Positions 5,086-63,884 of a DNA stretch of 64,000 nt are shown in pieces (the first letter of the stretch is position 1; every line of letters starts with the position of its first letter). The notes below the pieces were generated by a model. That model was not told the DNA's origin. It saw only the letters and a list, made by a program, of their open reading frames with translations, and ran no database searches. Origin of the DNA: Heliocybe sulcata (taxonomy: Eukaryota; Basidiomycota; Agaricomycetes; Gloeophyllales; Gloeophyllaceae); assembly GCA_004369045.1 (NCBI GenBank), contig ML213511.1, positions 1,008,278-1,072,277 on the forward strand, written 5' to 3'. Position numbers and translations under genes: made by a program.

Positions 5086-6339
5086 TCACACAGGGTGCGA
5101 GCGTATGAGGTTACGGAGTCTCTCCTCATGCTGGTATTTGTCCAGAGCCGACGCTTTCCATTCTAGCCACATCTTCTTGGGATCCTCTGCATTGCGTCCT
5201 TGCAGAGCAGCTAGCAAGCCGGCGAAGAGATTGGGGAACCATACTCGGTCATCAATATCTCCAGCAATGCAGTGCAATAGACGATGCTGCAATCGTCCAT
5301 TTCGGACGTGAGCCGCTAGATCGTGGCTACCCTTCTCTTCTAGAACCTCCGCGAAAACTTCCTCGTATTCGCTAAGCTCGTTGCTGCCATCGTAGTAAGA
5401 TACGATATCCAGGAGGAAGAATGGAGCACAGAATGCCTGCGCCTCGCACGTCGTCTGTGCCCACTCCCAGTCTATTATGCCGGTGATATTTCCATCATCA
5501 TCGATAAGAATATGGTCGCCCTTATCATCCATGTGCCTCAGAAAGAAGGCTGGCCGATCCAGGTCCTGGAACGGAGAATACGTGGCAATGTAGTCTCGTA
5601 GGTACCGGTGAACCAGGTATGCTTCCACAGAGTCACGAGGATAAGCCTCGCGATGGCTGATGAGATCCAGCTGGCGATCAATGATTGCGATTTGATACTT
5701 GGTCCAGGATGAGAATGGCCCAACGAGGTCAAGCTCTCCATCTACGGCGTCTGCGGTGTTGTCCGCCAAGAGAGGCCCGACAGAGGGATCGCCTGGATTT
5801 GCAAGGCAGCCAATAAGAGGGAAAGGGTGCCGCCTAAGCTTGATGACTATGTCCGCGAACTGGCTGAGGAACCTTCGCCGGCGCTGTTCGCCTAGGGAAT
5901 ACCAGTCCAGCTCCTCACCAGACAGCCTTTCCATGATAATATAGCTCACTCCAAGCGGGCTCGGTCTGCTCGCAACTGCATAGTCGTATACGATTGGAAC
6001 CGGAATACCGGCACTGGCCAGATATTGGAGAGTAGCAACTTCGCTGAGAACAATACGCTCCTGCAGTTGAGGAGGGGACGATGATGCATTTTGGCGACGC
6101 AGGCGACATATCCAGTAGACATCGTCCTGGAATCGTATGTTGAGGTGGTAGTTCATTCCGCCCAGAGCCAAGCGGACATAAGCAGAATCATAAGTGGCAC
6201 CTTCGAGAGTGCATGGGATACCGCCACGCAGTTCGCTTGCTCTCGCTTGCAACGCATCTGGCTGAAAGCTGGACAGCAGAGATGAAATTTCCTGTTGGAG
6301 CGCTTTATCGCTCGCGCAGTTCCACCTGGACTCGTCAGT
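5086..6339 (-). CDS. APH-family phosphotransferase-like protein
   Basis: An uninterrupted frame runs from 6339 down to the stop at 5086, over 400 codons with no in-frame ATG near its beginning. It appears to open at a splice acceptor near 6340, so the first exon is unidentified. The aminoglycoside/choline-kinase-like fold is recognisable from YIIMERLSGEELDW in the linker, FLRHMDDKGDHILIDDDG at the catalytic loop and GIIDWEWA with the metal-binding aspartate. The usual loop is HGDLHPGNI; the H-x-D pair survives but the following asparagine is histidine. Fungal members are rarely characterised, and nothing ties this one to antibiotic resistance. It is tail-to-tail with the aldo/keto reductase, 207 nt apart. 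Confidence 0.8.
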   Translation of the reverse strand, partial: TDESRWNCASDKALQQEISSLLSSFQPDALQARASELRGGIPCTLEGATYDSAYVRLALGGMNYHLNIRFQDDVYWICRLRRQNASSSPPQLQERIVLSEVATLQYLASAGIPVPIVYDYAVASRPSPLGVSYIIMERLSGEELDWYSLGEQRRRRFLSQFADIVIKLRRHPFPLIGCLANPGDPSVGPLLADNTADAVDGELDLVGPFSSWTKYQIAIIDRQLDLISHREAYPRDSVEAYLVHRYLRDYIATYSPFQDLDRPAFFLRHMDDKGDHILIDDDGNITGIIDWEWAQTTCEAQAFCAPFFLLDIVSYYDGSNELSEYEEVFAEVLEEKGSHDLAAHVRNGRLQHRLLHCIAGDIDDRVWFPNLFAGLLAALQGRNAEDPKKMWLEWKASALDKYQHEERLRNLIRSHPV

Positions 6340-7540
6340 CTAGTGGAAACGCCTATCAGTGGCAATATACCGTAACGTCGTGATAGCTGACCTCGCGGCT
6401 CGGGCAATCGTGATACGAGGCGTCGTTGTGTATGGCGCACAGGCGCCGTTCACAGAGGCGACAGGCTCCGTCCTTCCGGACAGATGGCTGTCTGCAGCTC
6501 GCAAAATCACAGACATGCAGAGGCATCTTGGGACAGGATGTATAGGACGAGCGGCTGGGTGATCAAGGGGCGGTTCTTGCCAGAAACACGAACAGGAGCG
6601 CGCGCGTCCTCGCTCGCGGGAACAAACCTTTTGACGGTCACGTGGAAGAAGTTTATATCGTGAGTCATGCCTGTTTGTGGGTCCCTGCAGGTCCTTTCTA
6701 GCCGGGCGTACCTTACCATCCATCGCTCCGAGTCTTGCTAATCGATGAATGGAAGCAACAGCGTGGTTAAGTGCAGCAGGATACTCACAGCTATCTTAAC
6801 AAATAAATACTTCTCTGCGTTTTCGCCCGGCGAAGAGAAAGACGATGTTTACCACAAGGTGAAATGGTGCAGGGTGCTGATACCTGATTGAACGCATAAG
6901 ATATAGTTCTAGGACGGCGCTGAGAATAAAAGAGACACGGACCAGAGTTACTCTGAGCGCTGCAAGCGCCAGTAACTCATGTGGCTGTCTGATATACGCC
7001 CAGGGTTGACGCCACTTCAAGAGATACTTATGGGCGACTGTATCCGCGAAGCCGACAGATGAGCCTAGCAACTGATTCGTAAAAGCCTCGAGAACTGTCG
7101 CTGCCGCGAAAAGCTTCAGGGGTGTGCAGTAGTCGCGTCCTGTGAAAGGATCCGAAGAACCCAGATTGGAGCCGCTGGCAGATGATGCGCTGAGTGAAAT
7201 CCAGATAAATCAGTCAATAAGATCGCCGCCCAGACGTGGAAAATGCTGGCTCTGAGGAATTACCTGGTAAGGACAGGCTTTTTGTCACAGATATGGGGAA
7301 GAGGCAGTTCAAGAAGCTGCTGATGAGGCTACAGATGGTGCGAGAACTCGAGTCAGCATTTCAAACCCTTCGTCAATCATCGAATGGGGCTTCACCGTCC
7401 TGGCGACCACGCCAACCGCTCCTAATGGTGCACGGACCTTGGGAATGTATATAAGACCCCGATTCAGTGCCCTGGAGAGCAACCATTGGTTCCGCGAACA
7501 GCTCTCTATCCATTCATACACCACCAGCCGCTACACCAAT
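6340..7540. other. intergenic region with possible unidentified exons
   Basis: The first exon of the APH-like gene should lie here on the minus strand but could not be fixed. A minus-strand pair of segments (about 6831-6775 and 6721-6507) can be joined across a 52-nt intron-like gap, but the product matches nothing known to me. No confident gene. Confidence 0.3.
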
Positions 7541-7868
7541 ATGGTTGCGCAAAAATGCAGACACCCCGGATGCGTCCGGTGGGCACAGACCGGCTATGAT
7601 TATTGCAGTGAGCGTATGTCCATCCCATCCACCACAGGGCTCGCGGTATCACTGACCTCGTTTCATTGGCAGACCAAGGATCCCACCAGGTCACGGACAG
7701 CATCAATTCCTGCTTGCCGCTGGACCCAAACAGTCAGTGGTACCAAGCAATTTCAAAGAGCCTTCTACTGACCATGATGCCTCCACCATAGAAGTCTTCC
7801 TCGGCCACACCGATGCAAAGCAAGAAGCCACTGTCGACTTCCACATCGTCCATGACCTTGGTTATTGA
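7541..7868 (+). CDS. small Cys/His-rich protein, 74 residues
   Basis: Proposed exons are 7541-7613, 7673-7689 and 7734-7868, with phases that agree. The N-terminus, with cysteines spaced in KCRHPGC and a later YCSEH, looks like a short zinc-binding module of the kind seen at the start of various basidiomycete proteins. The rest is polar (motif FLGHTDAKQEATVDFHIV). The last intron is only 44 nt, and skipping it leaves a different C-terminus ending at 7791, so the tail is uncertain. Function unknown. Confidence 0.4.
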
Positions 7869-8882
7869 ACCAGTTAGACCCGCGCAAGCCCAGAGGATGG
7901 CCCCATAATCTATGGACAGTTTTTTCGCACTTCTTTCCTCGCGTTATCTCATGCTGATTTCTGTGTAATTGACTGAGCGTCCCCTGTCAGCGTGTTAGAA
8001 GTCCCTTACGCACCTCGTGTGTCTGTTCAAGGTCGATGGCCTGGTCGGTGTTCGGCAATCGTATTGTGCTTCTATGCTTCTCCTTTCCTGCTTATACTAG
8101 TTGCATCAGTATCAAGTGACTCTGTCAGATGAATGCATGTTCACCTGTATTCAGGCCCAGAAGAGGCTGAAGTGCATACTACCACTCAATCAGACATATG
8201 TTTACCAGCAATCCACCATCGTGAAGGCAACAACCCCTTGTCAGAGTCTGTTGCACCATCCATCCAGAGTCGTCTCGTGTGGGCGTATAAAGAGAACTCA
8301 AAGTACATTTGCTAAAAGTCACTCATATTCAATACTGAACTGATCAGGAGATCCTCTGAAGTCTCGTACCTTATGCTTATAACTGCCGCTTCAGATTTAC
8401 CAGCATCAAAAGTATTACTCTCAGGTCGTCGATGCTTTTAGGAAGACCGTGGGAGCACATCGGCCATACCCGAACCGAGCTAACTCTTACTCTCTAAGCG
8501 TGCAATCTTTGACGACTTGCGATGGCAGGTATTGAAGTTTACTTCCTGTGCATCCTTTTGGATGACTAACATTTAGGTCGTAGGACTTCTCCTCCGGCGG
8601 CCATATGTTGAACGGAAGTGGCCAATCTTGTCGGCGGCTGGACGGGAAAGCATGTTTCTGTCAGATGACCACGCCCACCTGATAGAAGTGTAATAGCGTC
8701 TCAATTGGTAGTGTCCTCTGATCTACCCATAGCTTACTTACGCGGAAGATCCTTTCGTCCAGCATCCAATTCTCATCATATGACCTGGATTGCCCGAGCA
8801 TTCGCACACCCATATAATGCTTGGGGGTGAGTAGTAGCGAGCTCGTTTATCTCTCCGGCCTCAGCTTAGCACGCTGAGCGAC
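7869..8882. other. intergenic region upstream of P450
   Basis: About 1 kb without a recognisable coding frame. It presumably holds the P450 promoter. Confidence 0.4.
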
Positions 8883-10789
8883 ATGGGTTTCAACAACACT
8901 GAGAGCGACGTGCTCTCGAAGCTTGGCCAATGGTCTGGGCGAATAGGTTACTCTGACCTTCTGGTGTTACTCCCAATCTGCGCGCTTGTGCTGATTGCGG
9001 ACTACGCTCGCATGCTCTATCTACATTTCAAGATGGTGAGTCGTCTCGAACACATACCTCTCCTCAGAGATGTGACGTCTTCTTATAGCCACCCGGCCCA
9101 CTACCCCTGCCCATCATCGGCTGCACTTACCTCCTCCCAGACGAGAAACCCTGGATCTACTTCGAAGAGCTCTCGAAGAGATACAACACCCCCGTCATAA
9201 CCTTCTGGATCGGGCGCAACCCCACCGTCTGGATTAATGATGCCTGGGCAGCCTCCGAGCTCCTCGACAAGCGCGCAGGTATCTATTCGTCCCGCCCGCG
9301 CATGGTCGTCTTTGGCGAGCTCGGCAGCGGTCAGTCCAACCTCGTCACGATGAAATACGGGGACAGATGGAGACTCCACCGCAAGCTAACACATATGGGC
9401 GTCGGGATGCAAAAGATCCGCGATTACAGGCCCTTTCAGAATGACGAGAGCCGTGTCGTGGCGTACGATCTGCTCCACAATGCTGATGATTATGTGCTCC
9501 ATTTCGAACGTTACGCTGCAAGTGTTGTGTCCATCATCGGATACGGCAGAAGGATATCGACGTTCAAGGACCCAATTATCCCAGAGGTTATCGCTGTAAT
9601 GCACCGCGCGGCAGATCTCAACGTTCCAGGAAAGAAATTCCCCATGCTCATGGAAACGTTCCCAAGTGCGTACCTATATTTCAGGTTAGTATAAACCATG
9701 ACCCATATCTCCTTCCCACAGTCCTCGCAAAGTTCCCCACCAAAATCGCGCCCTGGAAGCACGGTCTCGGTGGTGGCCGTCAGCGGGGCCGCAACTTCTT
9801 CTATGCCCTCGCCGACGAAGCGGCAAAAGAGTCCGAACAGCCCTGCTACTCCAAAACTCTCTTCGACCACGCCGGCGACCTCTCCGTCCAAGAAATCGCT
9901 GCGCTCTCCGGGAACCTCTTCGGCGCGGGGAGCGACACGTCCGCGTCCACCCTTATCACGTTCGTCCTCGCGTGCTGTGCGTTCCCCGAGACGTTGCCGC
10001 GGGCGTGGGAGGAGCTGGATAGAGTCGTGGGCCCCAATCGGAGCCCGCATTTTGACGACGAGAAGGACTTGCCGTATGTGAAGGCATTCGTGAAGGAGGT
10101 GCTGAGATGGAGGAGCGTCGCGATCATCGGGGGGCAGCCGCACGCGCCCATTCAGGACGACTATTTCCAGGTGCGCATACCACTCACCACACCCAACCTT
10201 CCTTCCTCCCTTTCCCTTGCCCCATCCTAACACGTGTTCTGTAGAACTGGTACATCCCGAAAGACACCTGGGTGCAAGGCAACGTCTGGGCCATCCACCA
10301 CCATGCGCGCGACTTCCCTGAGCCCGACCGCTTCCTCCCAGAACGGTACTTCGACGATAGTCCATACCACCGCCCCTTCCCCAACGACCGCGGGTACATG
10401 ACTTTCGGCTGGGGGCGGCGCGTGTGTAGTGGGCAGGGGCTGGCAGAGCAGGGCACGTTTATTACCATCGCGAGGTTGCTGTGGGGGTTTAGGATCGAGA
10501 AAGCGCTGGATGAGCAGGGGAGGGAGGTGCCGGTGGATATTTTTGCGTATACGTGAGTACCCTGCTTCCTGTATTTGCGTTTTGGGTGCATGGCGGGGTG
10601 CTGATGAGAGGGGCATGCAGGAATGGCCTGAATATGCGCCCGCAGCCGTTCAAATGCCGGATTACGCCGAGAAATGAGGCGATCAGGGACACGATTGAGC
10701 AGGAGGGAAGGCAGGCGCTGGAGGATCTCGCGAAGTACGAGGGGGAGACGAAGTATAGAATGAGTACCTTCTATGGTCAGGATATCTAG
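8883..10789 (+). CDS. cytochrome P450 monooxygenase
   Basis: Five exons (8883-9035, 9089-9665, 9722-10170, 10245-10552, 10621-10789) give about 551 residues, a normal length for a fungal microsomal P450. A membrane anchor (DLLVLLPICALVLIADYA) is followed by the proline-rich hinge PPGPLPLPIIG. The I-helix oxygen-binding motif AGSDTSAS, the ExxR helix in KEVLRW and the haem-binding loop FGWGRRVCSGQGLAEQ with its cysteine are intact. The GGQPHA stretch and the loop are typical of the large OrdA-like P450 clans of Agaricomycetes, which hydroxylate varied small molecules. It should sit in the ER and need P450 reductase. The substrate is not predictable. It converges with the OCD-family gene, 172 nt apart. 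Confidence 0.95.
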
Positions 10790-39019: not shown

Positions 39020-40377
39020 GCATGCGGAAGAAAGGGTAGGAGCTTGAAGACAATAAAATGAATGTACGTTACCGCGATGGTATGAAAATATCTCGAGTTC
39101 GCCTCCGTGGGCGAGTCTTCAGCGGGCACGCCCGGCACACCTAGGCTTCGACGATCGGAATCCAGCGTATTCAATGCTTTAAAGATGTCCCTAATTGCGA
39201 CCAATCCGACGTGCACAGTATGCATTGCATAAATTGCGGTAAATGGATCAGCTTAGGCGAGAGGCCCACTTACGCGATTACGCCGTCTCGAACCATCTCA
39301 AGCGGTGGATCAAGTGAATGGCTCTTACTAGATCTCGCTGTGCCTCGAGTTTTGTTACTCATATCTGACTTGCCGCCGGTTAGACCTAGTGATCGCGTAG
39401 CGTTGGCCGAGCGCAAACTGAAAGTTGTCAACGGCCCGCAGGCCAGGGCGTTCGCTCCTCGTGCTATGGAGTGCGCGTCTTCTGGTGAGACTGTCATGCC
39501 TGCCTGACAATGGCTTGATGAAATGGAATAAATACAAGGCGAGCTGCGCCTAGTAAGTCTTCAACTATTGCACAATACTTTGAGGAGACCGCTGAGATTT
39601 TCTTCAGTACCTAACCGAAGTCCGTCGTCGCGCCAGTTAGTGAACAGTACGGCGGCAGCTGTCTCTGACACCGTAAGCGCACGAACATGTATCCAGCGGA
39701 AACCTAACCCAAGGTATTAATTTGCAGGATGATAATGGCACACCATCAATAAAATAGAGAATCCCATCAAGAATCACGTTGACCATCAGCTTCATTGGCT
39801 CACTAGGAAGAGGTGGGATTCATTGGTTCGGCCTGCAAGAACTCTTGGGCGGTAGCTCAAATTCTCGGGGCCAAGCTGCGAGTTGACTTCGTCAAAGCGA
39901 CTGCATACGGCTTAATAGCGCTATACGCATTGCCAGAGAAGTATGGCCTCTGCTTAAGGTTGCCTAAGGAAACCCATCAGTATCCCGTCATTTAAATATA
40001 TGCTAGGAAGCGGACCATCTGCTGTTCGAAAGTCATGAATATGGGCGTGGCAGATACCGATACCAAGTCGGTCTGGTATGCCCGACTGCGTATATCCTGG
40101 TTCCCAACCTGACAACTGCAAAATCTCTGAAAAAAGAGTAAACTCTAGGCACGGGTACGCTGCGCACTGCATGCCCCACGCGTGGGGGCCTGAGGAATTG
40201 AAGGTATACAGACAGTCAAGCAAAGTCTGACCGCTCCCCACTGAAGCCCGGAGAGTGAACTCTGGGCAATGGAAACAGGGACGCAGCGGAGATTTAATTA
40301 CTACAAGCGCAGGGTAGGATATCGATACAGCGGCAGTCGTCTCAATACAGAGAGTAAACGATACAGAGAGTAAACTA
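39020..40377. other. intergenic region
   Basis: No gene was recognised. A tandem duplication of about 15 bp lies at 40345-40375. Confidence 0.4.
40345..40375. repeat. 15-bp tandem duplication, period 16
   Basis: ATACAGAGAGTAAAC at 40345-40359 and 40361-40375. Confidence 0.75.
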
Positions 40378-41037
40378 TCAGTTGTTGATCTGTCCCGCAC
40401 CGGTGGAAGCAGCGTGCAGTGCCGGCAGATAGTGCTGGAGTTCCTCAGGTACTTTGTAGTCCTTCATCATTACCTCCGCCACCCTCTGGATATACTCGCC
40501 ATACTTCGGGTCCATAGCCTCCACTGTCTCATTAAGCATCCGGCACAGCCGCTCGAAATACACCCCCGGTGATTCAGCAGGTTCCACCTGTTCGCCGAGC
40601 TGCGCGCCGAAACGCCTGCGGCGAGCCTTGCATATAGCCTTCTCTGCTTGCCACGCGAGCTGACAAATAGCCATGAAGTGTCCACTGTGGGAGTCGGTCG
40701 AAGGGAGAACATCCGTCAGATTGTCGCGTTTCCTCCCCGCTATCAACTTCGGATCGTAGGCTGCTGTCCAATCCCGGTACGCGTCGTGGACTGCTACCTT
40801 GCCTTTATCGTAGCGAGCACAGATCCACAGACCCACGTATGCAAACGACTCAACATCATACTCTGGCAGGCCAATTACTCCGCGGTCCTGTGCAAGAGTG
40901 TCGAGATAGGACGTACCGTAGAGGTGCGCGACCGGCTTGCCACTCCGAAATGAAGTGAGGAGAGCATGGGCCATAAACGGGATGGTACCAGTCCGATCAT
41001 TTGCAAGTAAACGGTTGTCACTGTGATAGATCGACAA
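40378..41037 (-). pseudogene. FunK1-type kinase C-lobe remnant
   Basis: The frame encodes about 219 residues matching only the C-terminal half of the fungal FunK1 kinase family: DRTGTIPFMAHALL (activation-segment end), VAHLYG and PEYDVESFAYVGLWICARY, then a variable helical tail. The N-lobe, catalytic loop and metal-binding segment that should precede it were not found in the next kilobase upstream, and the frame has no convincing ATG. It is therefore probably a truncated copy. A functional short protein cannot be excluded, because the remaining frame is open and the stop is in a natural position. Confidence 0.6.
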
Positions 41038-44000
41038 GTCATGAGGTTACGAATCGTCTATCAATGCATCAAGCAACGAAGTATACATACTCGCGAGACG
41101 TCATATGCCTCTCACCGGATGGTGTCGAGTGGATTGAGTTCGACGAGGCGGTGGTCCGCTCCTCCAGGGTGCAAGAGTGCGGCAAAGGATTGAATAATGA
41201 AGACGCGACACGCGACAACACGCGCAAGGACCCACATTCGACTTCCCGCGGTTTGTTCGGTGATGTCGCGTTAACGGGCACGTGACACAACGCACGCTCT
41301 TTGTGGCATACACATGCATCTGACAATCCAATAATAAGCCGAGCACAAGATACGTACCTAGTAGTAGTTGGGCATCGGTCAGTGCTAAGAGCTTTTTTTC
41401 GTCTACAACCAGAGGGAACTCGTTAATAGATTGTCAAAGTACAGGTAACGTCCGCAGAGCAATAATCAGAATTCCCCATAATGTCAATCATAAACTGAAA
41501 GCCCACGCCAGAAGTAAAGAAGTCAATCAAATCCACCTTAAGACTTTCCGCCTGCAGAGGGCCCAAGGGAGACGGATCCACCTTCCTGGAGAATTAAACA
41601 GAACCGTTGGTTCCGCCTCACGCGAGGTAGAGGCGCTGGCTGGTGACCGGTGACCATCGGCGCCACCAGTCCTACGGCTCTCAATCCACATCCAACACCC
41701 AAATACCACGGCACCTATAAACAGCACTCCGAGAGAGACCTTGATGAGCGTGAAGACGAGACTCAACAGTAGAGCGCCGATCGATCAGACGACCATTACG
41801 AGACGGAAACTCAGGCGGAGACTCCTGGCCGAAATCGCGTCTTTGTGTTTCGTGCTCCGCTCTTAGGGATGGGAACTGGGGTGCGTATCCCGCCACCAGA
41901 ACGCTGACGGCGGCGAGCGCTAGTGCACAAGTCGGACTGCCGCTGCCAGGCAGGTCTCGAACGCGAGGACGGATGACCGAGGCCATCCCCCGCATGCTTG
42001 ACGATGTGTACTTCATTTAAGCCTCTTTCACGAGATTCAATTCCTGCGAGACAGGTGAGTAGGCGGCGGCGAGCGGATTAGCGTGTGGGCGTGCTTGGTG
42101 AACTTGAGCCTCGAATGCACGCGGGGAATTACCGACAGGCACGCGTGACGCGTCTACGCGTTGTGGGCGCACTGCGAAGCTCGTCAACCGGAGAATTTAA
42201 GCGCGGTTAATGCAATCGAGAAGCCGACAGCGTACCTGCGTTACGACCCAAGACTTAGGCGTGACGAGGCTGTATGCGCGTAGCTGCGCTGAAACACGGA
42301 TCCGCCGTTCTGGGTTGGATTCGCAAGGTATCCGCTCGGGCTTTATAAGACGGCTGGCTGGCCGTTCGCGGCGTGCACTGCGATACGGAACTCGTCTGTT
42401 AGCATGCTCTCAATGATTCAGCATGTGAGAAAGCCTGTGCCACTTTGCAAGAGTCAGCATTCCACAGCCGACATCTCGAGCTCCGTCAAAGGTGGACGCC
42501 GAACCCCATAACTACTCGCCGCCTGAGAAGCACTCGTAGCGTGCTTCTCGGACAGTGAGTGGAGTCGCGACGACCGAGTAGGGGAATCCTTCCATGATGG
42601 GGATACGTACTGTGTCATCGTAATGGCAAGAGGCGCAGTGCTTGCGTATAGCCAGACAGGATGAGCGGTGTTCCGGTAGATAATCCTGAGAGTGAAACCC
42701 ATAACGTCATCGTTCGGAACGCTCAGCATCGGCAATAGACTTACTTGAAAGCCTCTGTGCGCTCATCGAGTTCGATAGCGATCACAAGGCAGTAACCCCT
42801 TCTCAGGATAATCACTGAAAGAAGCCCCGACATCGCGACATTATGTGAAATGCCTCCGAGATGGCAAAAGCCTCACGCATCGGTTGCTTTCTGGTATGTT
42901 AATGCTTAGACACTGAATGAGCGTGTTCGATTACCGTACGGAAGATAATTCGAGTCAAATACACCTACCCAGCATGCATCCTATCTGATGCTTCAACCCA
43001 ATCCGCCGCAAGGATGGCTGTCAACGCCACTCTGATTGTCATGAACACGAGAGGCAGCATACCTATGTAATTCCCAGCTTCTCAGATCGCTTTGGATCTT
43101 CCGGGGATTCCGTGACGTTGCTGGAATGCGCTTTCGGGACAACGTACCCAGTCGATTGCTGGTCTACTGCGAGACCCGCGGTCCATTGAGTAGACGGTCA
43201 CCAAAGCACCCAGAGCCCGCGTGGTAGACGTTAAAGAGCGGGTATCGCCTGTCTGAGTGTACGGCACTTTGATTAGATTGGCCTGCTGGATGCGAGATCA
43301 CTCTGACGGAGGTGGCGAGAACTGAGCGAGTGCGCGCGAGAGCAAAGACCAGGCAACCCTATTCGGCATATTTGTGGTTCACCAAAGTCTCGGAGCCCGT
43401 AAAAGAGGCGATTAGGCAAGGGGAGTGGAAAGATGGCCCAGCACGTATAATAGCGAGAACTTGAGAGTCCCAGTTGCACGCAAAGAAAGCATCGGACGAG
43501 ATATTGCCGCTAGCATGTGTCGCCGAGGTTATTGCACTGCACCAGGACCGGACAAAGCTAGAACAAGCTTGATAGAACACATCGCTCGAGTCAGACAGAT
43601 GAGAAAAGGTCGGAATCATTAGGGACCAATCCGCGGCTCATATGTAGTGTTGCAAGCAGCGGGATGTGGCGTGGGCATACGGTTTCCTCGGCGAGTTGTC
43701 GGATCGCCGAGGAAGCATACCTTGAATACTATAAATTCCCATTTGTATCTAGCGCCCTCGCATTCTCTTGAAATTGATGCATTGTGCGTTCTATATCTTC
43801 TGCTCTGGTTGTAATAAAAAGCATATCTCTCATCTGGGCCGATCGTGCTGGGTATGTACCGGCTCGCGTTTAACTACAAGGGGGGAATAAAACAGTAACC
43901 CTGGCTATATATTCGGAAATAATTTAGGTGACCTCAGGACTCGAAACACATGCCATGCTTGCAATGGCCCTCTTCCACAAGTTGATAAAACCGACTACTA

Positions 44001-46546: not shown

Positions 46547-47455
46547 TCAAGCCCCATTCCCGACGTCCCGAGTAGCTTTCTCGAATAAATTCTTGATTAC
46601 CGACCTGTTCCCCTCCTCGAGCTCCTGACAGCGCTCGATACGCTTAGCCATTTCTGCGAGGTCCGACTGCTCCTGCTCCCTGCTTCTCCTCACCGCCCCG
46701 CTGAACTTCGTTTGCCATGCAGCTAATTGGCTATTCGCGCTTCGCTCCTGATCTTCCTTCAGGTGCTTGTCATACTGCTGGATGTCTTCTATCGCAGCAT
46801 TGGGACTCATTACGCGTACCCTCAGCCAGGCACCGAATCGCCCGCCACGATCGTGCGCCACTCCCTTCACCTGCACGAACTTGTAATCGTCCACCATCCG
46901 CCGCATGAATATCTCGCAGAACCAGTAGCATTGGGCGCTGAAGAGACGATAGTATTTCTGCGTCTTGCTGTTTGCCTGACAGACTCGACAGACGTCGGCC
47001 AGTAGCAGAGTGTTGCCAGGTGGGATCAGCAGGTGCGAAACTTTCAGGAACTCCTTAGGGTTGAAGTCCATGACACGGGTAACGCAGTCGACGGGATCTC
47101 GGACGGTATGCGAGACACCTCCGATGGCATTGGGGCCCGTCGCGCTAGGTCGTCTTTCCATGCGCAATAGAATAGGTTTGTTTCTCAAGATAATGTGCGT
47201 GAGCAGGAATTCGTGCCCTAATATGCCCTCAGATCTTGCCGACTATGAAGTCTAGGGGAACCAACTACCTACGAAGCTCGGGTTCTTGTAACGCTCAACC
47301 TTTGCAATCTTGTAATCACTGTATATATCCTGATTTGCGAGGATTTCGGCTGTCAGGACAGACAGCAACATAGGATAGTCTCCAGAGCCATCCAACCTCA
47401 GCAATATGTTGGCCATGGACGATTCTTGTTGGGGAGACGGAGAGGGGACCTTCAT
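46547..47455 (-). CDS. uncharacterised agaricomycete protein
   Basis: Two exons (47455-47269 and 47217-46547) join cleanly to about 285 residues. The first carries SDYKIAKVERYKNPSFVG, the second GHEFLLTHIILRNKPILLRM and a long segment ending in a charged, probably coiled-coil tail (REQEQSDLAEMAKRIERCQE). The pattern of a variable N-terminus plus a FHEFL-like core is familiar from unnamed basidiomycete proteins, but I cannot assign a function. Upstream exons could exist. It is divergent from the HSP104-like gene. Confidence 0.6.
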
Positions 47456-47886
47456 GAAGGAGAATCGCAGGTACTGTCCCTCTTATGTCAACTACCATTA
47501 TCTGTGCGCTCGGATTCAATGATCGGGTTTATGAGTGGCATATGAGCGTCTGTTCACGCACAGCCTGAGTCTTCATTCACTTGGGATGGCCGGCATCATC
47601 GCCGGGCATTTGCTCTATTCACAGACTTCTGGAACATTCCTCAGAGGGAGAAGCATAGCCAGCTCATGAAGTCGGAACGATCGATCTGCAGTCCAAAACT
47701 TCCTAGGGGCACGAACTGCACGAGGCGTAAGCCCATAGCCCTTGCTATTATTATCGTCCATTGTTGTGTTCTGATGCGATGTGGACAGGGAAGCTGTGGA
47801 AAGCAGTGCAGACGACTTTAGAGATATCCAGGATCTCTTGAAGGCTTATCTGCACGATAGCCGACCCTCTCTAGTTCCCTGGCGCG
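47456..47886. other. divergent intergenic region
   Basis: It holds the promoter of the HSP104-like gene. A short plus-strand frame ending at 47907 (SADDFRDIQDLLKAYLHDSR) looks protein-like and overlaps the proposed start at 47887 in another frame. It could belong to an extra upstream exon or gene. Confidence 0.3.
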
Positions 47887-50800
47887 ATGTCGGAGACGAG
47901 CACTGACTCCTCTCTATCGAACCTACAGAAGCCCCTACCAGAATTACAGCATGGCTTCAGTAATGAAATGGACGAGCTCCTGCGGAATTGCATTGTGCTT
48001 ACAGGGCTTATTCACGGCAGTGACGACTTTCTACTTCATCCACTCCACTTCGCGCTGACGCTGCTTCACGGACCTTTCAAGCCTGCTGAGCACCCACATG
48101 CGGCTTGTCAGATGCTACCTCCCTCGCCAGAGAAGACGCTCTTCTGGAGTGCTATATCCAGGCTTGTGTATCCGCAAACCGCCTTGACTATGCCTCGTTA
48201 TGTGGAATCCATGGTCTATAACGTCGAAGGAGCCAAAAAAGGGGACCCGATGCAGCTGTCCATAACCAAGACAATTCTCTTCAAGATCGAATGCCTACAG
48301 GACGAGATTGCACCGCGATTGTCCGATGTCGATCACGTACGTCGTTTCCATTGCGGGGAACTAACTGACCTTCATGGGTTGAGGTAGCTTCTTCTTCGAT
48401 GTACGGACGGAACAATAGCTATGATCCGGCTCGCTGATCAGCTATGTACCAGACGAGTCAGTCTCTCCTTCATGACTCTCGAGATCTTTATCAGGACTTC
48501 TGACTCTCAAATGATCAGGACGACAAATATATCGCGTCTCATCACATACTTCTTGCCCTGCTTGAAGACGAGCAGCTCTGTAAAATTTTAAATGATGCAG
48601 GGGCAGATCCAGAAGCCATAGCACGCATCGTGACTGACCTTCGGCGAGAGAGAGTGACGACTGACAGTGCGGTGGAGGGTTTCGACTTCCTCAGACGGTT
48701 GGCGCTTCTCGCATAATGCGATAATCCTTGCTCTAACCACTCAGAGGACAGGTACGCGACGGATATGACCGACCTTATGCAGAAGAACATCGAACGGGGT
48801 GAATTTGACTCGGTAATCGGCAGGGCATGTTTGATGTGTCGCCATCTACTACACATCCACCTGATGCATGGCAATGCAGAACAATGAAATTCGGGAGATC
48901 GTGTCTATCCTGGCTCGCGCGTATGGGCGCCCCTCCCTCGACTGCAGTCATTACGTGCTAATTCACCTCGCATTAGCACGAAGAATAGTGTGGTCATACT
49001 TGGTGAGTCTCTACTCCGGAAAGCTTAGATTCCTGACTTACCCACGTATAACAGGTGATCCAGGAGTTGGCAAGACCGCCATTGTTGACGGTCTCATCGC
49101 CAGAATGATCCGGAACGAAGTTCCCGAGGCCGTCTGCGCACGGATATTCAGGATTGATTTGGCAGGGCTTTTAGCGAGCACAGCTTGCCAGTCATCATAT
49201 GAAATCGTTAGTAACGGTGGAATGCAGTATCATGCATGCGCACTGATCGTTCATCTCTGTGGCAGATACTGGAAGGGATCCTGAAAGGTAGATCCCGTTT
49301 ATCTTTGTCACGCAATAATGCTCACATTTGAGCCCTGTCTCGTCAATATAGAGATTGCGCGTGAAGCTCTGAGAGGCCATCAGGCAATTCTCTTTATCGA
49401 GGATTTGAATCAAATCGCAATAGGTGGCTACAGAGATGGAGGCGGAGGCCTGTACGTACACAGCATCGCGATACCGGATCTCGAGATACAGCTAATAGTC
49501 CAAATGGGTGCGAACTACAGAGATGCCGCAACCCTGATGAAACCGTTTCTGTCCACCGGAAAAGTGAAGTGTATAGGGTGCTCCAATTTTCAAGACTACG
49601 CAGCCACCATCGAGAAAGACGGTGCGCTATCCCGCCATTTCTCTAAGGCACTTATCCCATACCCCAATTTCCGCTTGCTCCACTGACTATCCGACTACTC
49701 AGGTATCGGTCTGTGAGCCTGGTCTTGAGGAGACAATAGCCATATTACGCTCGCTTAAGCCAAGACTGGAGATATTTCATCGAGTACGGATACTAGACGA
49801 GGCGATAGTAGCCGCTTCGAGCATGGCTGCTCAGTATTTTGTGCACAAGCGGTATCTCCGTTTTTTTCTTAGAGAGCGTAAAAGATGGACTAACTGCGGG
49901 GACGCTCGCGAAAAGCCTTCCGGATGCAGCATTGGACCTAATAGACGAAGCGTGCACTACAGTCAAGATTCGAGGAGGGGAGCACGACGAAGAACTACGA
50001 AGATGCAGGAGACAGCGGCTGCTCCTACAGTTAGAAATATCCTCTCTGAGTGTACGTTGTCTGTCTCCTTGGTCAGTAGCACAGCTTGATCGGACTTACT
50101 TCCGTGCATTTCTTTTTAGAGAGAAGCTGATTTCTCTGAACTGAACGAGACGATCATGCGTTCGCGGCTCAACAGGTTGAACTCGCTAGAAGAGCGCGTT
50201 AGGAATACCAAAGTGTCCCTGTTAGAACGTCGGCGTGTCCTGTCCAATCACGCTGGTCTACGCCAGCAGATTAACTCCATCGAGGAAAGCATGCACAGTT
50301 ACGCTGAGGCACAGTGAGATTGACTACGTCACTAAATATTGTGCGATGATTTTCCATTCCTGACAATTCTCATGCCATCAGGGAACACGATAGGGTACAA
50401 GAGTGTCTGGAACGTATACGGGAGCTGACTCACCAGCTGCACTTGGAAGCTCCAGCTGGGTCGGATTCCTCAGAGGAATTGCATGCTTCTGCTTCTGGCT
50501 CTGAGCTACCTCCTGCCTCTCGTAAAGTCCAAAGATCGGATGTCGCTGAAACGGCTTCCTGGCATACCTATATCCCGTCTGCAGCGCCTGCACATACCCG
50601 ACAAGCTGTGGATAAGACCCTCTCAGAAGCTGTGAAAAGATCCGTCCAATCATGCCTTCGAACGGATGCTGACGCCGGTATTGCAGGTATTAGCCCAACC
50701 GGAAGCGGTGGAAGCTCTAGCGGGTGCGATCAATTGTATGATGGCTGGCCTCTCGGATCCGAATAGACCTATCGCGGCCTTCCTCATCGGCGGACCCCCG

Positions 50801-52087
50801 GGGTCAGGCAAACAGCTGCTTATCAATGAGGTATTCTCCGTCTTTTATCAATAAGCTGAGAGACGGGTAGGAGCTGATCTCTCATAGGTCGCCACGTTCT
50901 TACGGAAGAATTCAGGCAAGATTGTCCACATAAATGCGTGCCATTACGCCAATCCAATCTCTATTTCCCGTTTGGTGAGCTCGTAGTTCCATGTCGCGGT
51001 CGTATCCCACCGATTTCTGAATGCTGCGTGCAGCTTGGAACGCCAGAGTGTACAGGCTTTGACCAAGGAGGAGAACTCACGGAATGTGTGAGACGCAAGC
51101 CCTTCTCCGTGATCTGCATCTCGAAGTATAGCTAGCTTACGCAGACGACTATTCATCTCACTCACGCCGCTTGTACTAGGATTGAACAAGCTTGCACTGC
51201 ATTCCGAGTAGTGATTCAAACCATGTTAGATGCGGGGTTCCTAAGGGACGGGGCAGGAAGGTCCGTGGACTTCAGGTCAGTTCGTCGTACCCTTTGACTA
51301 TCCAATATCGACAGCGTCGGCGGTGTTGGATGACGAGTCCTACTTCATCGCAGGAACTGTATCATCATCATGACCACAAATATCGGCAGGGAAAGGAGCC
51401 GATACGTCATCCACTCGCAAGACGAGCGGCAAGCCTACATGCAGGACATTCAAAAACACTTCCCTGTGGAGTTTCTTGCTCGCGTAGACCAGATAGTGAT
51501 TTTCGTGCGTACGCTCTTCACATGCTCGACGTCGCTTGACGATGCTCTGGTAACTATAGAACTCCGTCGCCAATGCCATGTCTTTCATTGTAGAAAGCCG
51601 CTTAGAAGAACTGCGGAAACAGTTGCTAGCTCTCAAGCTGCATCTGGTAGTGGACCCGCCGGCGAAGCTACATCTCACGGCTCACGGTTGGCTGGTCACA
51701 AGAGGCGCCCGTCATCTGGAGTCAATTATCCGGGATGAATTGCTTCGCCCATTGGCCAACATTATTCTGCAAGATTGCGATGACATCCTAGACAATTCAA
51801 GAATCATTGTAGCATGGGATGACAAGAACCTGCAGCTGTCCGTAACAGTAGCGAAGCCCCTGAATATCCGCTCCGACTCCCCTGATAGTCGCGACTCTTC
51901 TCCGAGCTTACCCACGACGGACCCTGATTCTGGGGACTTCGTCTTCACAGTGGAGGATTTGCCCGACCTCGCAGAGCCAGACCGCCATCTGCCTAGTCCG
52001 CAAGATGCAGGGGACTCGGATCTCGCCAGCCGGTTGGGATCTGGTTCTCTGAAACCCAGACCGTTGCCACAAAGAGTGATGTGGTGA
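47887..52087 (+). CDS. divergent HSP104/ClpB-like AAA+ protein
   Basis: About 20 exons give roughly 1030 residues with the full HSP104 order: Clp N repeats (SHHILLALLEDEQLCKILND), AAA-1, coiled-coil middle domain (about 50120-50500), AAA-2 and an acidic tail. AAA-1 Walker A is intact (GDPGVGKT). Its Walker B reads ILFIEDL instead of ILFIDE, pore loop KYRG is ACQS, and the arginine-finger pair RR is RH. AAA-2 keeps DPNRP and a modified Walker A, GPPGSGKQ. Its Walker B acidic pair is lost (SVICISKIEQA against SVVLLDEIEKA), and the GYVG pore motif is ECTG. IIIMTTN and FLARVDQIVIF are kept. Exons include 48519-48697, 49055-49206, 50687-50830, 51034-51125, 51180-51275, 51354-51504 and 51560-52087. 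The junction near 49834-49876 is uncertain. Introns at 48825 and 49648 appear to be GC-AG. It is unlikely to be a normal disaggregase. Confidence 0.85.
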
Positions 52088-52766
52088 CTGCTGGTGCTGT
52101 ATTGACCATATGAAACCACTGCGAAAGCTGCAGCTGGTGCATACGTCTATTGCGCTGTTTCTGTTCCGATCGATGAAGCTAGATACATACTTGCACTTCC
52201 GTATAGGAGAGGGACCTTGTTATTGAGTTCGGGGGCACTCTTCGACTAGCAGCTGCAAAACCTACTATTCGACATTCTGCTGTAGTGCAGGAATGAAGCG
52301 GCAGATATGCAAGTGCACCAGCCGTCACGGTACTGCAGTACCAGATCACGTGCTCGATAGCCAATTATTTACAACTTCCGCAAATTATTTCAAGGTTATA
52401 TAGCACAATTAATATCCGGTCACCGGCATCTGAAATTCCAGCGTTCACATCAAGCTCACGTCCTGTTCGCCGAGGACCGCGCGCCCGACATTCCTGAGTT
52501 CTTGTCAGCGACGACAGCGGACGGTCGGGTAAACTGAGGTATATCCTCTGCCTACTTCTCGGTAACAGAGTCCTGACAGCACGCCGGCCCCGCAGCTAAG
52601 GGAACACGGTTCTATCAGGTCGACGCACTAGGGGATACCGGGTACATCCTGCGACGATTGAGACGTTGGAAGCGAAGCGGAACTCCGGAGAATAGGTGCG
52701 TACTTGAGCTCCGCAGAAGTACTCTGTCTCACGGACGAATTGGCTGAAGGCTGCGAAGGGACAATT
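52088..52766. other. intergenic region upstream of AUR1
   Basis: About 680 nt between two genes on the same strand. No other gene was seen; it should contain the AUR1 promoter. Confidence 0.45.
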
Positions 52767-54089
52767 ATGTCAATCCGCATCAGTAGCCTTCCACGGCCTC
52801 TGGCCACGGTGCTGACTGCCTTCGTGGCAGCAGTAGGCCGTATGGACAAGTCGCTGTCTCCGTCTGATACCATGGCTCGACTTCGGCAGCACACCTTCAC
52901 ATTCTCCGACTCCATATACATCTTTCACCTGGCACTCGCCGCTTTCTGGATCACCCTCATGCAATTCCCGCCGTTCCCTCTTAAGCTCGCCGTACCTATC
53001 CTCTACACTATATTGCTCCTGATACCCCTCACGTCACAGTTCTTTCTGCCGTTTGTCCCAGTCGCATCGTGGATTCTCACATTCTACTCATCTCGGTTCA
53101 TACCTGAGGCCTGGCGCCCGTCGATCTCAGTATCCCTCCTCCCTACACTTGAGACAGTTCTCTACGGTGCTAATGTATCCGATATTCTCACCCGCTTCAC
53201 TCATCCAGCCCTCGACATCCTCGCATGGCTCCCATACGGAATCATCCACTTCGTATTCCCCTTCGTCGTAGCTGCGTTCATATGGCTCTTCCGGCCCAAG
53301 CAAGCTCTCCACCTCTGGGCACGCACGTTCGGGTACATGAATCTAATCGGAGTCATCGTCCAGATCCTGCTTCCCTGCGCTGCACCGTGGTACGAGCTCA
53401 TATACGGTCTGACTCCTGCGAACTATTCCATGCCTGGCTCCGCCGGCGGCCTGGGCCGCATCGACGCATTGTTCGGCTCACACGGCTACGAGACGACTTT
53501 CTCCCATTCGCCCGTCGTTTTCGGCGCCTTTCCTTCCCTGCACGCCGGTTGCGCGACCATCGAGGCGCTCTTCATCTCGCACTTCTTTCCGCAGATGACC
53601 AGGTATATCTGGGCATATGCGGGCGTTCTCTACTGGGCAACGATGTACCTGACACACCATTACCTTGTCGATGTCGTGGGCGGCGCGTGCCTTGCAATCG
53701 CGTGTTTCTACCTTTTCCTACCCGATGAGTTCCGTGGGCCGCTCGCTACCGCGTCGCCCACCTCTCCCGGCCGTAGATCCAAGTACGATGCCTACAACTT
53801 GGAGGAGCCACGGTCTCGGGTTGCGGATATGGACGACTTTGAATTGTCGAGCGCAGAGGAGGACGAGATGGATATCCCGTATAGGTCGCCACTACCCGGA
53901 CAGCAGCAGCAGATGCCGAGCGAGCAAGGGAAGAAGAGCCATAGACATACCGCAAGTATTGCGAGTCTGATTAGGGCGGAGGAGCGGGTTGAGGATGGCT
54001 GGAGTCCTATCATGGGAACCTTCGCGTTTCCTCCCGGATCGCCGGCTGCTGTAGCAAGGGAGAGGGACCGAGAGGATGCGAGGGTATAA
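52767..54089 (+). CDS. AUR1: inositol phosphorylceramide synthase catalytic subunit
   Basis: A single uninterrupted exon of 440 codons from the ATG at 52767. The protein transfers phosphoinositol from phosphatidylinositol to ceramide in the Golgi, an essential fungal step in sphingolipid synthesis and the target of aureobasidin A. It has several membrane helices and the PAP2-like active-site motifs: CAAPWYELIYG with YSMPGSAGGLGRID, the central SPVVFGAFPSLHAGCA, and THHYLVDVVGG with the catalytic histidine and aspartate. A hydrophilic C-terminal tail of about 110 residues is rich in Ser, Glu and Gln. In this window an intron-free gene of this length is unusual. An in-frame upstream TTG at 52704 is a less likely start. 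Confidence 0.97.
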   Translation: MSIRISSLPRPLATVLTAFVAAVGRMDKSLSPSDTMARLRQHTFTFSDSIYIFHLALAAFWITLMQFPPFPLKLAVPILYTILLLIPLTSQFFLPFVPVASWILTFYSSRFIPEAWRPSISVSLLPTLETVLYGANVSDILTRFTHPALDILAWLPYGIIHFVFPFVVAAFIWLFRPKQALHLWARTFGYMNLIGVIVQILLPCAAPWYELIYGLTPANYSMPGSAGGLGRIDALFGSHGYETTFSHSPVVFGAFPSLHAGCATIEALFISHFFPQMTRYIWAYAGVLYWATMYLTHHYLVDVVGGACLAIACFYLFLPDEFRGPLATASPTSPGRRSKYDAYNLEEPRSRVADMDDFELSSAEEDEMDIPYRSPLPGQQQQMPSEQGKKSHRHTASIASLIRAEERVEDGWSPIMGTFAFPPGSPAAVARERDREDARV

Positions 54090-62747: not shown

Positions 62748-63884
62748 ATGGATTACGTGAACAAGACGTCTGAAGTGTCTATTCCACTCATCCACGAGTC
62801 TAGTGCGTGCCGTTCTTACCATCCACATCTTCCACACGGTTCTTGGGCTAGAAGTGACTCCCCGTCATGCTTATCCAAGTATTCAATCCACGCAATTTTG
62901 TTCGACTGATAACATCCTGGCATCCCTTCCACAGCCATCGAGGCCTTCCTGCCTCTCCTGGAGAAGAACAGGAAGCAGATCGAAGAAATACCGCGGAAGA
63001 CCTTCCAATATGGTCCCACAGAAAGGCACCAGGTATACTCCTCTGCATCGTCCATAAAGGAATTGAGACTCAATTCTTCTCTGAAGCTCGATGTCTACTA
63101 TCCCATTAGTGGTGGCGGCAAAGCCCCCATCCTCTTCTTCGTCTATGGCGGCGGCTTCTCTATGGGCAGTCGCGTCATGCCCGGGCCTCAATCCATAGGA
63201 TACCCGTGCCTGGGAGCTTTCTTCGCGCACAGAGGCTTTGTCACCGTTATAGCAGACTACCGTCTGGTTCCGCACATCAAGTACCCCGCGCCAGTTGAGG
63301 ATCTGCGGGACGCCTTCCAATGGATTTTCGACGACAAACCGGAGGTACGCCTCGCAGGCCACCCTGCACCGGACGTAGAGAACGCTTTCATCATGGCTCA
63401 TTCCGCCGGTGCCACGCACATTGCCACACTCCTGCTCTCCCCGACTGTCCTCTCGCCCTCTGTGCGCCCAGGGTTCCTATCTCGTATAAAGAAGGTGGTT
63501 CTGAACGCCGGAGCGTATCACTTCCGCTCGGAGCATGCTGCGGACCCATCGGTACTCGAGGCGTACTACGGCAAGCCCACCGAGTTGCGAGACAGCGAAC
63601 CACTCACTCTAGTTGAGAAGGCTTCCGCGGATCTCATCAAGAGCTTGCCCGATATCTTGATGCTCCGCGGAGAGAAGGAGCCTCAGGGTTTGATCGTGCC
63701 TAACGATGAGTTCAGGAGCGAGTTGGAGAAGCGTCTGAAGGAGGCGGGCGGTGGAAGGAATGGCCAGACGCAAGTGAGAATGGTTGTCAACAAAGGTCAC
63801 AACCATATCAGTTGTCACTGGGCGCTGTCGTCCGGCGAAGGCGAGGAGTGGGCTGAGGAGGTGCTGACGTTCTTCCGCTCGTGA
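62748..63884 (+). CDS. alpha/beta hydrolase (esterase/lipase type)
   Basis: Three exons (62748-62802, 62935-63032, 63087-63884) give about 316 residues. The oxyanion-hole motif is VYGGGF (HGG-like), the nucleophile elbow is MAHSAGA, and the catalytic histidine is likely in NKGHNHIS with an acidic partner in VPNDEF. Landmarks such as VIADYRLVP and YPAPVEDLRDAFQWIF place it with carboxylesterases of the hormone-sensitive-lipase/BD-FAE/kynurenine-formamidase superfamily. The elbow is A-H-S-A-G rather than G-x-S-x-G, which is tolerated in some members. No signal peptide is evident, so it is probably cytosolic. Substrate unknown. Confidence 0.88.

Follow-up and report, generated by a model that had tools for sequence, protein, structure and literature searches.

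The window analysed here, a 64-kb stretch of contig C9 of the basidiomycete Heliocybe sulcata, carries at positions 47887-52087 of the plus strand an HSP104-derived gene (hereafter the window gene, encoding the window protein), whose reading frame is open and whose motor motifs are altered; both observations were confirmed. The gene was modelled by splice-aware alignment to the HSP104 of the same genome, with exon 1 and the final exon placed by hand. The spliced model consists of 20 exons with a coding sequence of 3066 nt (1021 codons), a single terminal stop, no internal stops and no frameshifts, and thus, as claimed in an earlier reading of this DNA (the original prediction), the frame runs unbroken from a Clp N-domain to a D2-small domain and tail. 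The 19 introns are 51-78 nt long, with GT-AG ends in 17 cases and GC-AG ends in two (introns 4 and 10), and 17 of them are common to a second divergent HSP104 paralogue of the same contig, designated L011. The following features were distinguished (all on the plus strand):

47887-52087 (+): window gene, Hsp104-derived, 1021 aa (alignment to own HSP104; 17 introns common to L011)
47887-48336, 48388-48456, 48519-48697, 48752-48824, 48880-48920 (+): exons 1-5
48977-49002, 49055-49206, 49266-49287, 49352-49451, 49521-49647 (+): exons 6-10
49703-49851, 49916-50051, 50120-50313, 50382-50631, 50687-50830 (+): exons 11-15
50888-50974, 51034-51125, 51180-51275, 51354-51504, 51560-52087 (+): exons 16-20
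48433-48644 (+): Clp N-domain repeat, residues 166-215, broken by intron 2 (Clp_N, E 1.4e-9)
48825-48879 (+): intron 4, GC donor, with an in-frame GT donor 12 nt upstream (gene model)
49002-49077 (+): Walker A of AAA1, GDPGVGKT, intact, first Gly codon split by intron 6 (motif mapping)
49183-49194 (+): pore loop 1, ACQS for KYKG (motif mapping)
49399-49404 (+): Walker B of AAA1, ED for DE (motif mapping)
49633-49635 (+): AAA1 arginine finger R409, kept, in ALSRHF (motif mapping)
49648-49702 (+): intron 10, weak GC donor GCACTT, the L011 equivalent starting GTACTT (gene model, L011 comparison)
50792-50815 (+): Walker A of AAA2, GPPGSGKQ, Thr to Gln (motif mapping)
51046-51057 (+): pore loop 2, ECTG for GYVG (motif mapping)
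51121-51180 (+): Walker B of AAA2, Ser and Lys for Asp and Glu, Lys codon split by intron 17 (motif mapping)
51481-51483 (+): AAA2 arginine finger R839, kept, in FLARVD (motif mapping)
51560-52087 (+): D2-small domain with sensor-2 GAR kept, followed by a new Ser/Pro/Asp-rich tail (ClpB_D2-small, E 1.9e-10)
47627-47639 (+): perfect three-unit heat-shock element TTCnnGAAnnTTC, 260 bp upstream of the ATG (motif search)

The predicted HSP104 family layout was recovered in the spliced protein, in which Pfam models Clp_N, AAA_lid_9, AAA_2 and ClpB_D2-small matched in the expected order, each above its cut-off, while AAA1 was recognised by general AAA models only. In the PDB, ClpB and Hsp104 chains match best (top E value 6e-127), with ClpC, ClpA and others ranking lower. 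The equivalog cut-off of NCBIfam TIGR03346 was missed (548.3 versus 1232.1 bits, the window protein alone being scanned). Residues 1-150 align weakly with other Hsp104 proteins and contain an apparent insertion. A coiled region is present in the M-domain, where the stretch near LRYYALPDL, the Hsp70-contact motif, lies partly opposite a gap in the alignment. The acidic tail of the original prediction can be described more closely: the 91 residues from position 931 onwards include 16 Asp or Glu and 9 Lys or Arg, and form a Ser/Pro/Asp-rich extension exceeding the HSP104 tail in length.

Residue columns were named after Chaetomium Hsp104, following the relevant part of PMC5130295, and mapped onto the window protein. 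Every predicted motif change was found: the Walker B of AAA1 has DE changed to ED at exactly the coordinates given in the original prediction, the Walker B acids of AAA2 are replaced by Ser and Lys across intron 17, the Walker A of AAA2 ends in GKQ, and the pore loops read ACQS and ECTG. Compared with what a disaggregase needs, the window protein (i) lacks two competent ATP sites (Walker A plus Walker B in each module), (ii) lacks the pore-loop Tyr in both modules, and (iii) possesses the trans-acting arginine fingers, R409 and R839 being aligned with Chaetomium R349 and R788, which are described as arginine fingers acting in trans in a section of PMC5130295. Also kept are the Lys and Thr of Walker A1, the Lys of Walker A2, and the AAA2 sensor-1 N748 and sensor-2 R849 (Chaetomium numbering). 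Other changes comprise the replacement of the second Arg of ERRF by His, and of R402 by Lys with an adjacent Arg. The GATT of AAA1 sensor-1 reads GCSN; this motif was left unscored because Thr330 of PMC5130295 mapped to Gly in the numbering used.

Alternative splicing does not bring the lost motifs back in any of the in-frame junction pairs tested: none of 42 pairs restored Walker B2, none of 18 Walker A2 and none of 35 pore loop 2. This test covered single-junction changes of up to 90 nt with GT or GC donors, the model junctions being counted, and applied to these three motifs, as Walker B1 and pore loop 1 are exon-internal. With both Walker B2 acids, the Walker A2 Thr and both pore Tyr residues gone, the window protein is very unlikely to act as a processive threading ATPase, since AAA-2, whose site is lost, is the main motor for threading according to passages of PMC4436881. 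Nucleotide binding by AAA1 is probably retained, judging from the kept residues, and some AAA1 activity is possible because NBD1 (nucleotide-binding domain 1) supplies most of the basal ATPase of Hsp104, as stated in part of PMC3887210.

The 31.6-Mb, 51-contig assembly was searched with profiles AAA_2, ClpB_D2-small, AAA_lid_9 and Clp_N, followed by gene modelling, which indicated four ClpB-type genes: a canonical HSP104 (contig C1), an Hsp78-type gene (C17), and the window gene and L011 (both C9). The canonical HSP104, a search for which had been proposed with the original prediction, has 5 exons and encodes 905 aa. Clp_N matched three times in the genome (HSP104, the window gene and L011) and ClpB_D2-small five times; the fifth match, on contig C2, is presumably ClpX-like, going by its signature. 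Further AAA_2 matches lie on contigs C14, C12 and C3 and at C17:334738.

L011 (C9:1121500-1129500) was modelled downstream of its position 1346 only, with the N-terminal part outside the model, and the modelled part starts 62 kb downstream of the window gene. It has a single in-frame TGA at a conserved splice junction (exon junction 1945/2000); Walker A2 reads GPSGTRKT and pore loop 1 is shortened. Both Walker B motifs, pore loop 2 and the arginine fingers are retained, and L011 is probably either truncated or a young pseudogene. All 17 of its modelled introns match the window gene in alignment column and phase, which places the gene model beyond chance. By comparison, the window gene has two of the four HSP104 introns in common with that gene, and none (0/19 modelled) with the Hsp78-type gene, whose N-terminal exons are doubtful. 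Amino acid identity of the window protein amounts to 34.8% with HSP104 (886 residues), 32.4% with L011 (809 residues) and 30.1% with the Hsp78-type protein (763 residues), and that of L011 with HSP104 to 48.5% (804 residues).

The shared introns also bear on whether the gene is a modelling or assembly artefact, its exons having been chosen to dodge stops. The two GC donors and the weakly aligned residues 1-150 could be read in this way, and when the window protein served as the query, the L011 models were of lower quality, containing additional introns and one or two frameshifts. However, with HSP104 as the query the program directly yielded 16 of the 17 L011 introns and all 17 matching introns of the window gene, which coincide; the 17th L011 junction, where the stop lies, had to be placed manually, as the program avoids stops. 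The GC content at the three codon positions (0.59/0.42/0.55, against 0.485 in the introns) likewise argues against an artefact, which we consider highly improbable; it is for the body of the gene that the shared introns count against it.

Descent from HSP104 is supported by a tree of eight sequences and 720 columns, the reference sequences being partial. The window copy and L011 form a pair (98.1/95; Shimodaira-Hasegawa-like approximate likelihood ratio test (SH-aLRT)/ultrafast bootstrap (UFBoot)), which is sister to the HSP104 of the same genome (98.9/99, or 96.1/89 when L011 is omitted). This HSP104 adjoins ascomycete HSP104, with Calcarisporiella outside. Branch lengths are 1.59 substitutions per site for the window copy, 0.69 for L011 and 0.20 for HSP104. 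A duplication before the ascomycete split was rejected by the approximately unbiased (AU) test in three topologies (P 0.0048, 0.001 and 0.0016), the first of which is not rejected by the Shimodaira-Hasegawa (SH) test (P 0.062). The topology with the window copy outside HSP104 and L011 is not rejected (AU P 0.0745) and is disfavoured because the window gene and L011 share introns. Tree and introns support the view that the window gene arose long ago as a duplicate of the species' own cytosolic HSP104, after the split from the ascomycetes.

The ratio of nonsynonymous to synonymous substitution rates (dN/dS) was unusable because synonymous sites are saturated: the proportion of synonymous differences (pS) is 0.75-0.80 over three pairs, and the window gene has pS 0.77-0.80 and a proportion of nonsynonymous differences (pN) of 0.47-0.49. 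Differences at the three codon positions, counted over 698 codons, are 0.533/0.415/0.696 between the window gene and L011, and 0.509/0.398/0.689 between the window gene and HSP104. At 383 sites identical in HSP104 and L011, the window protein keeps 204 residues and changes 179, with a mean BLOSUM62 score of +0.11 for the changed sites, against -0.47 to -1.27 under neutral simulation with 1-8 hits per codon. When the HSP104 frame was left to decay neutrally in simulation until identity had fallen to 55%, a mean of 17.1 stops and a minimum of 7 (50 runs) arose, compared with none in the window gene. The GC content by codon position given above is a further sign of constraint. Long neutral drift was rejected because the changes are conservative and a codon-position bias is present, and past selection on the window protein is supported; these tests integrate the whole history of the copy and not its present state.

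The window protein is best read as a non-motor HSP104 paralogue, perhaps a passive subunit of HSP104 rings. It keeps the Hsp100 domain order and probably binds nucleotide at its retained AAA1 site. Among the mechanisms considered we favour, with low confidence, one in which it would enter rings of canonical HSP104, offer its kept arginine fingers to neighbouring subunits and lower or re-tune disaggregation. Retention of Walker A1, of an arginine finger in each module and of the AAA2 sensor-1 Asn and sensor-2 Arg speaks for this proposal, and passages of PMC3887210 describe fast and random subunit exchange in Hsp104 and ClpB. Heat may also induce the gene through the upstream element, which is unique in the 64 kb as a perfect three-unit heat-shock element (0.35-0.49 expected from shuffles; the opposite-strand match is the same 47627-47639 site). 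The 600 bp upstream of HSP104 contain five one-mismatch matches in two clusters, none of them perfect. A stronger form of the proposal, in which the window protein is a heat-induced natural dominant modulator, a motor-dead subunit lacking gripping loops that has evolved to join HSP104 hexamers, appears unlikely to us.

Several observations weigh against entry into HSP104 rings. NBD2 nucleotide binding and the C-terminal extension are both critical for Hsp104 hexamerization, as reported in a section of PMC3887210. The window protein departs from HSP104 in both respects, its AAA2 site being damaged (with the Walker A2 Lys kept) and its tail replaced. The subunit interfaces may no longer fit, given 35% identity to HSP104. 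Heat regulation through the upstream element is possible, the search for it being single and post hoc, and the L011 upstream stretch tested, given an uncertain L011 start, holds no such element. If WcHSP100-3 of Wolfiporia cocos (1043 aa) is kin, part of PMC10045903 reports that its expression is inhibited above 35 C.

The splice donors and the pattern of motif loss are further points against a maintained ring subunit, and they also bear on the possibility that the gene is in early decay, long constrained and now released with its frame still unbroken, like its sister L011. The donors score lower in the window gene than in L011 with a leave-one-out matrix (mean 4.07 versus 6.07, one-sided P 0.038) and with an HSP104 plus Hsp78 matrix (3.24 versus 6.00, P 0.013). 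In the latter, 12 of 17 paired introns have the weaker donor in the window gene (Wilcoxon P 0.0055); the count is 13 of 17 with a matrix including L011 and 12 of 17 with one excluding it. Two GC donors occur in the window gene and none in the 17 L011, 4 HSP104 and 14 Hsp78 introns examined. Of the positions that do not vary among five reference chaperones, 55 lie in motifs and 193 elsewhere; the window protein has kept 32 of the 55 and 110 of the 193, and has lost 23 of 55 and 83 of 193, the same rate in both classes. In L011, 49 of the 55 and 149 of the 193 are retained, and the two proteins differ in retention at motif positions (P 0.0004). The motif ranges of this count were chosen by the analyst, that of AAA1 sensor-1 misses its Thr residues, and the Walker B Glu columns were excluded because two of the five references carry Glu-to-Ala.

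A favoured removal of catalysis is accordingly unsupported, as loss has been no faster in the motifs than at the remaining invariant positions; the counts show that the motor is no longer specially protected, not that its removal was favoured. Early decay would also fit the in-frame TGA already present in L011 and the long branch of the window copy relative to HSP104. On the other hand, the frame is intact over 1021 codons despite 179 of 383 conserved sites having changed, conservatively, and the pseudogene signs of stops, frameshifts and lost splice ends are absent, since all 19 introns end in GT-AG or GC-AG and the acceptors are no weaker than those of L011. The interpretation in the original prediction is partly supported: HSP104 descent, the open frame, loss of motor residues, a canonical HSP104 elsewhere in the genome and past selection stand. 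The new role is hypothetical, and the weaker donors and the motif positions kept no better than others speak against it. We regard early decay as possible and hold it with as little confidence as the mixed-ring proposal.

It is also conceivable, and we put it forward with similar reserve, that the window protein is independent of HSP104, acting as a holdase or scaffold with an AAA1 nucleotide switch. The intact Walker A1, a Walker B1 that is still acidic (ED) and the kept N-domain repeat are consistent with such a role, as are the rebuilt M-domain and linker and the new N-domain insert and tail. However, nothing specific indicates an assembly of its own, and the finger and sensors retained in AAA2 could equally well be partner contacts. 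The independent holdase and early decay are live rivals of nearly equal weight to the mixed-ring mechanism.

In the surroundings of the window gene, frames 46547-47242 (-), without a Pfam match, and 47252-47482 (-) likely represent a divergent neighbour, which probably shares the gap holding the heat-shock element. A PAP2_3 phosphatase-like frame (52662-54089, +) lies directly downstream. Open frames with an APH-type phosphotransferase domain (5089-6339, -) and an alpha/beta-hydrolase domain (BD-FAE, Abhydrolase_3; 62913-63881, +) are also present in the window. A segmental duplication including flanks was rejected, as a blastn comparison of the window with L011 and eight other stretches of C9 matched only the 40-44 kb part, and neither gene nor flanks. 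Window positions 40361-41813 and 43933-43991 resemble, at 70-91% DNA identity, two stretches lying between the two paralogues, L015 (4197-10000) and L016 (29-2193 and 6586-6646). The longest such piece (680 bp, 91.5%) overlaps PF17667 fungal kinase frames, which score above the cut-off in L015 and just below it in the window. L016 also has an open frame of 962 codons (6821-9706, -) encoding a PIF1-like helicase domain, possibly part of a Helitron, which is a guess. The terminal 2 kb of the contig contain no telomere repeat, the window gene ends 105 kb before the contig end, and a subtelomeric location is unsupported. Viral contigs gave a pattern match in one stretch, and none encodes a relative.

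Three HSP100 genes each are described in part of PMC10045903 for Wolfiporia cocos (904, 956 and 1043 aa) and in part of PMC9858218 for Lentinula edodes (890, 771 and 749 aa). A large HSP100 phylogeny describes fungal HSP104 and MT78 lineages, and a non-motor HSP104 paralogue is not mentioned in the examined parts of that work (PMC12283024); among the matches listed in the open-access literature there was no natural ATPase-dead Hsp104 paralogue. In laboratory studies, defective subunits are doped into Hsp104 and ClpB hexamers to probe subunit cooperation, as outlined in sections of PMC3887210. A natural defective subunit, if true, would show that cells use the doping principle, and would make Hsp104 control testable in the fungus and in yeast; a modulator would provide a built-in brake or re-tuning of disaggregation and of aggregate and prion handling. 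Early decay would instead make the window copy and L011 a clean example of Hsp104 duplicates losing the motor.

The window protein can be set against several known systems. WcHSP100-3 is similarly a third, longer HSP100 beside a 904-aa copy and is of similar length; that it may be a relative is a guess. Pex1/Pex6 D1, as far as passages of PMC4490564 describe them, are likewise domains lacking a canonical Walker B, or pore aromatics (Pex1 D1), within a working AAA+ ring, but they belong to a different AAA+ family with an established stable heterohexamer, whereas mixing of the window protein with HSP104 is only proposed. The Hsp78-type gene has the Hsp100 fold in common with the window gene and differs in its canonical Walker B and pore loop 2 and in lacking common introns. 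L011 resembles the window gene in all 17 modelled introns and differs from it in retaining both Walker B motifs and pore loop 2 and in having a stop. Finally, fungal cytosolic HSP104 (the species' own, Chaetomium thermophilum 5d4w and Calcarisporiella 6d00) has the same order of N-domain, AAA1, M-domain, AAA2 and D2-small; relative to it, the window protein has lost the AAA2 site and both pore loops and has a degraded M-domain motif and linker, and in comparison with the HSP104 of its own genome the window gene has 20 exons against 5 and a long Ser/Pro/Asp tail.

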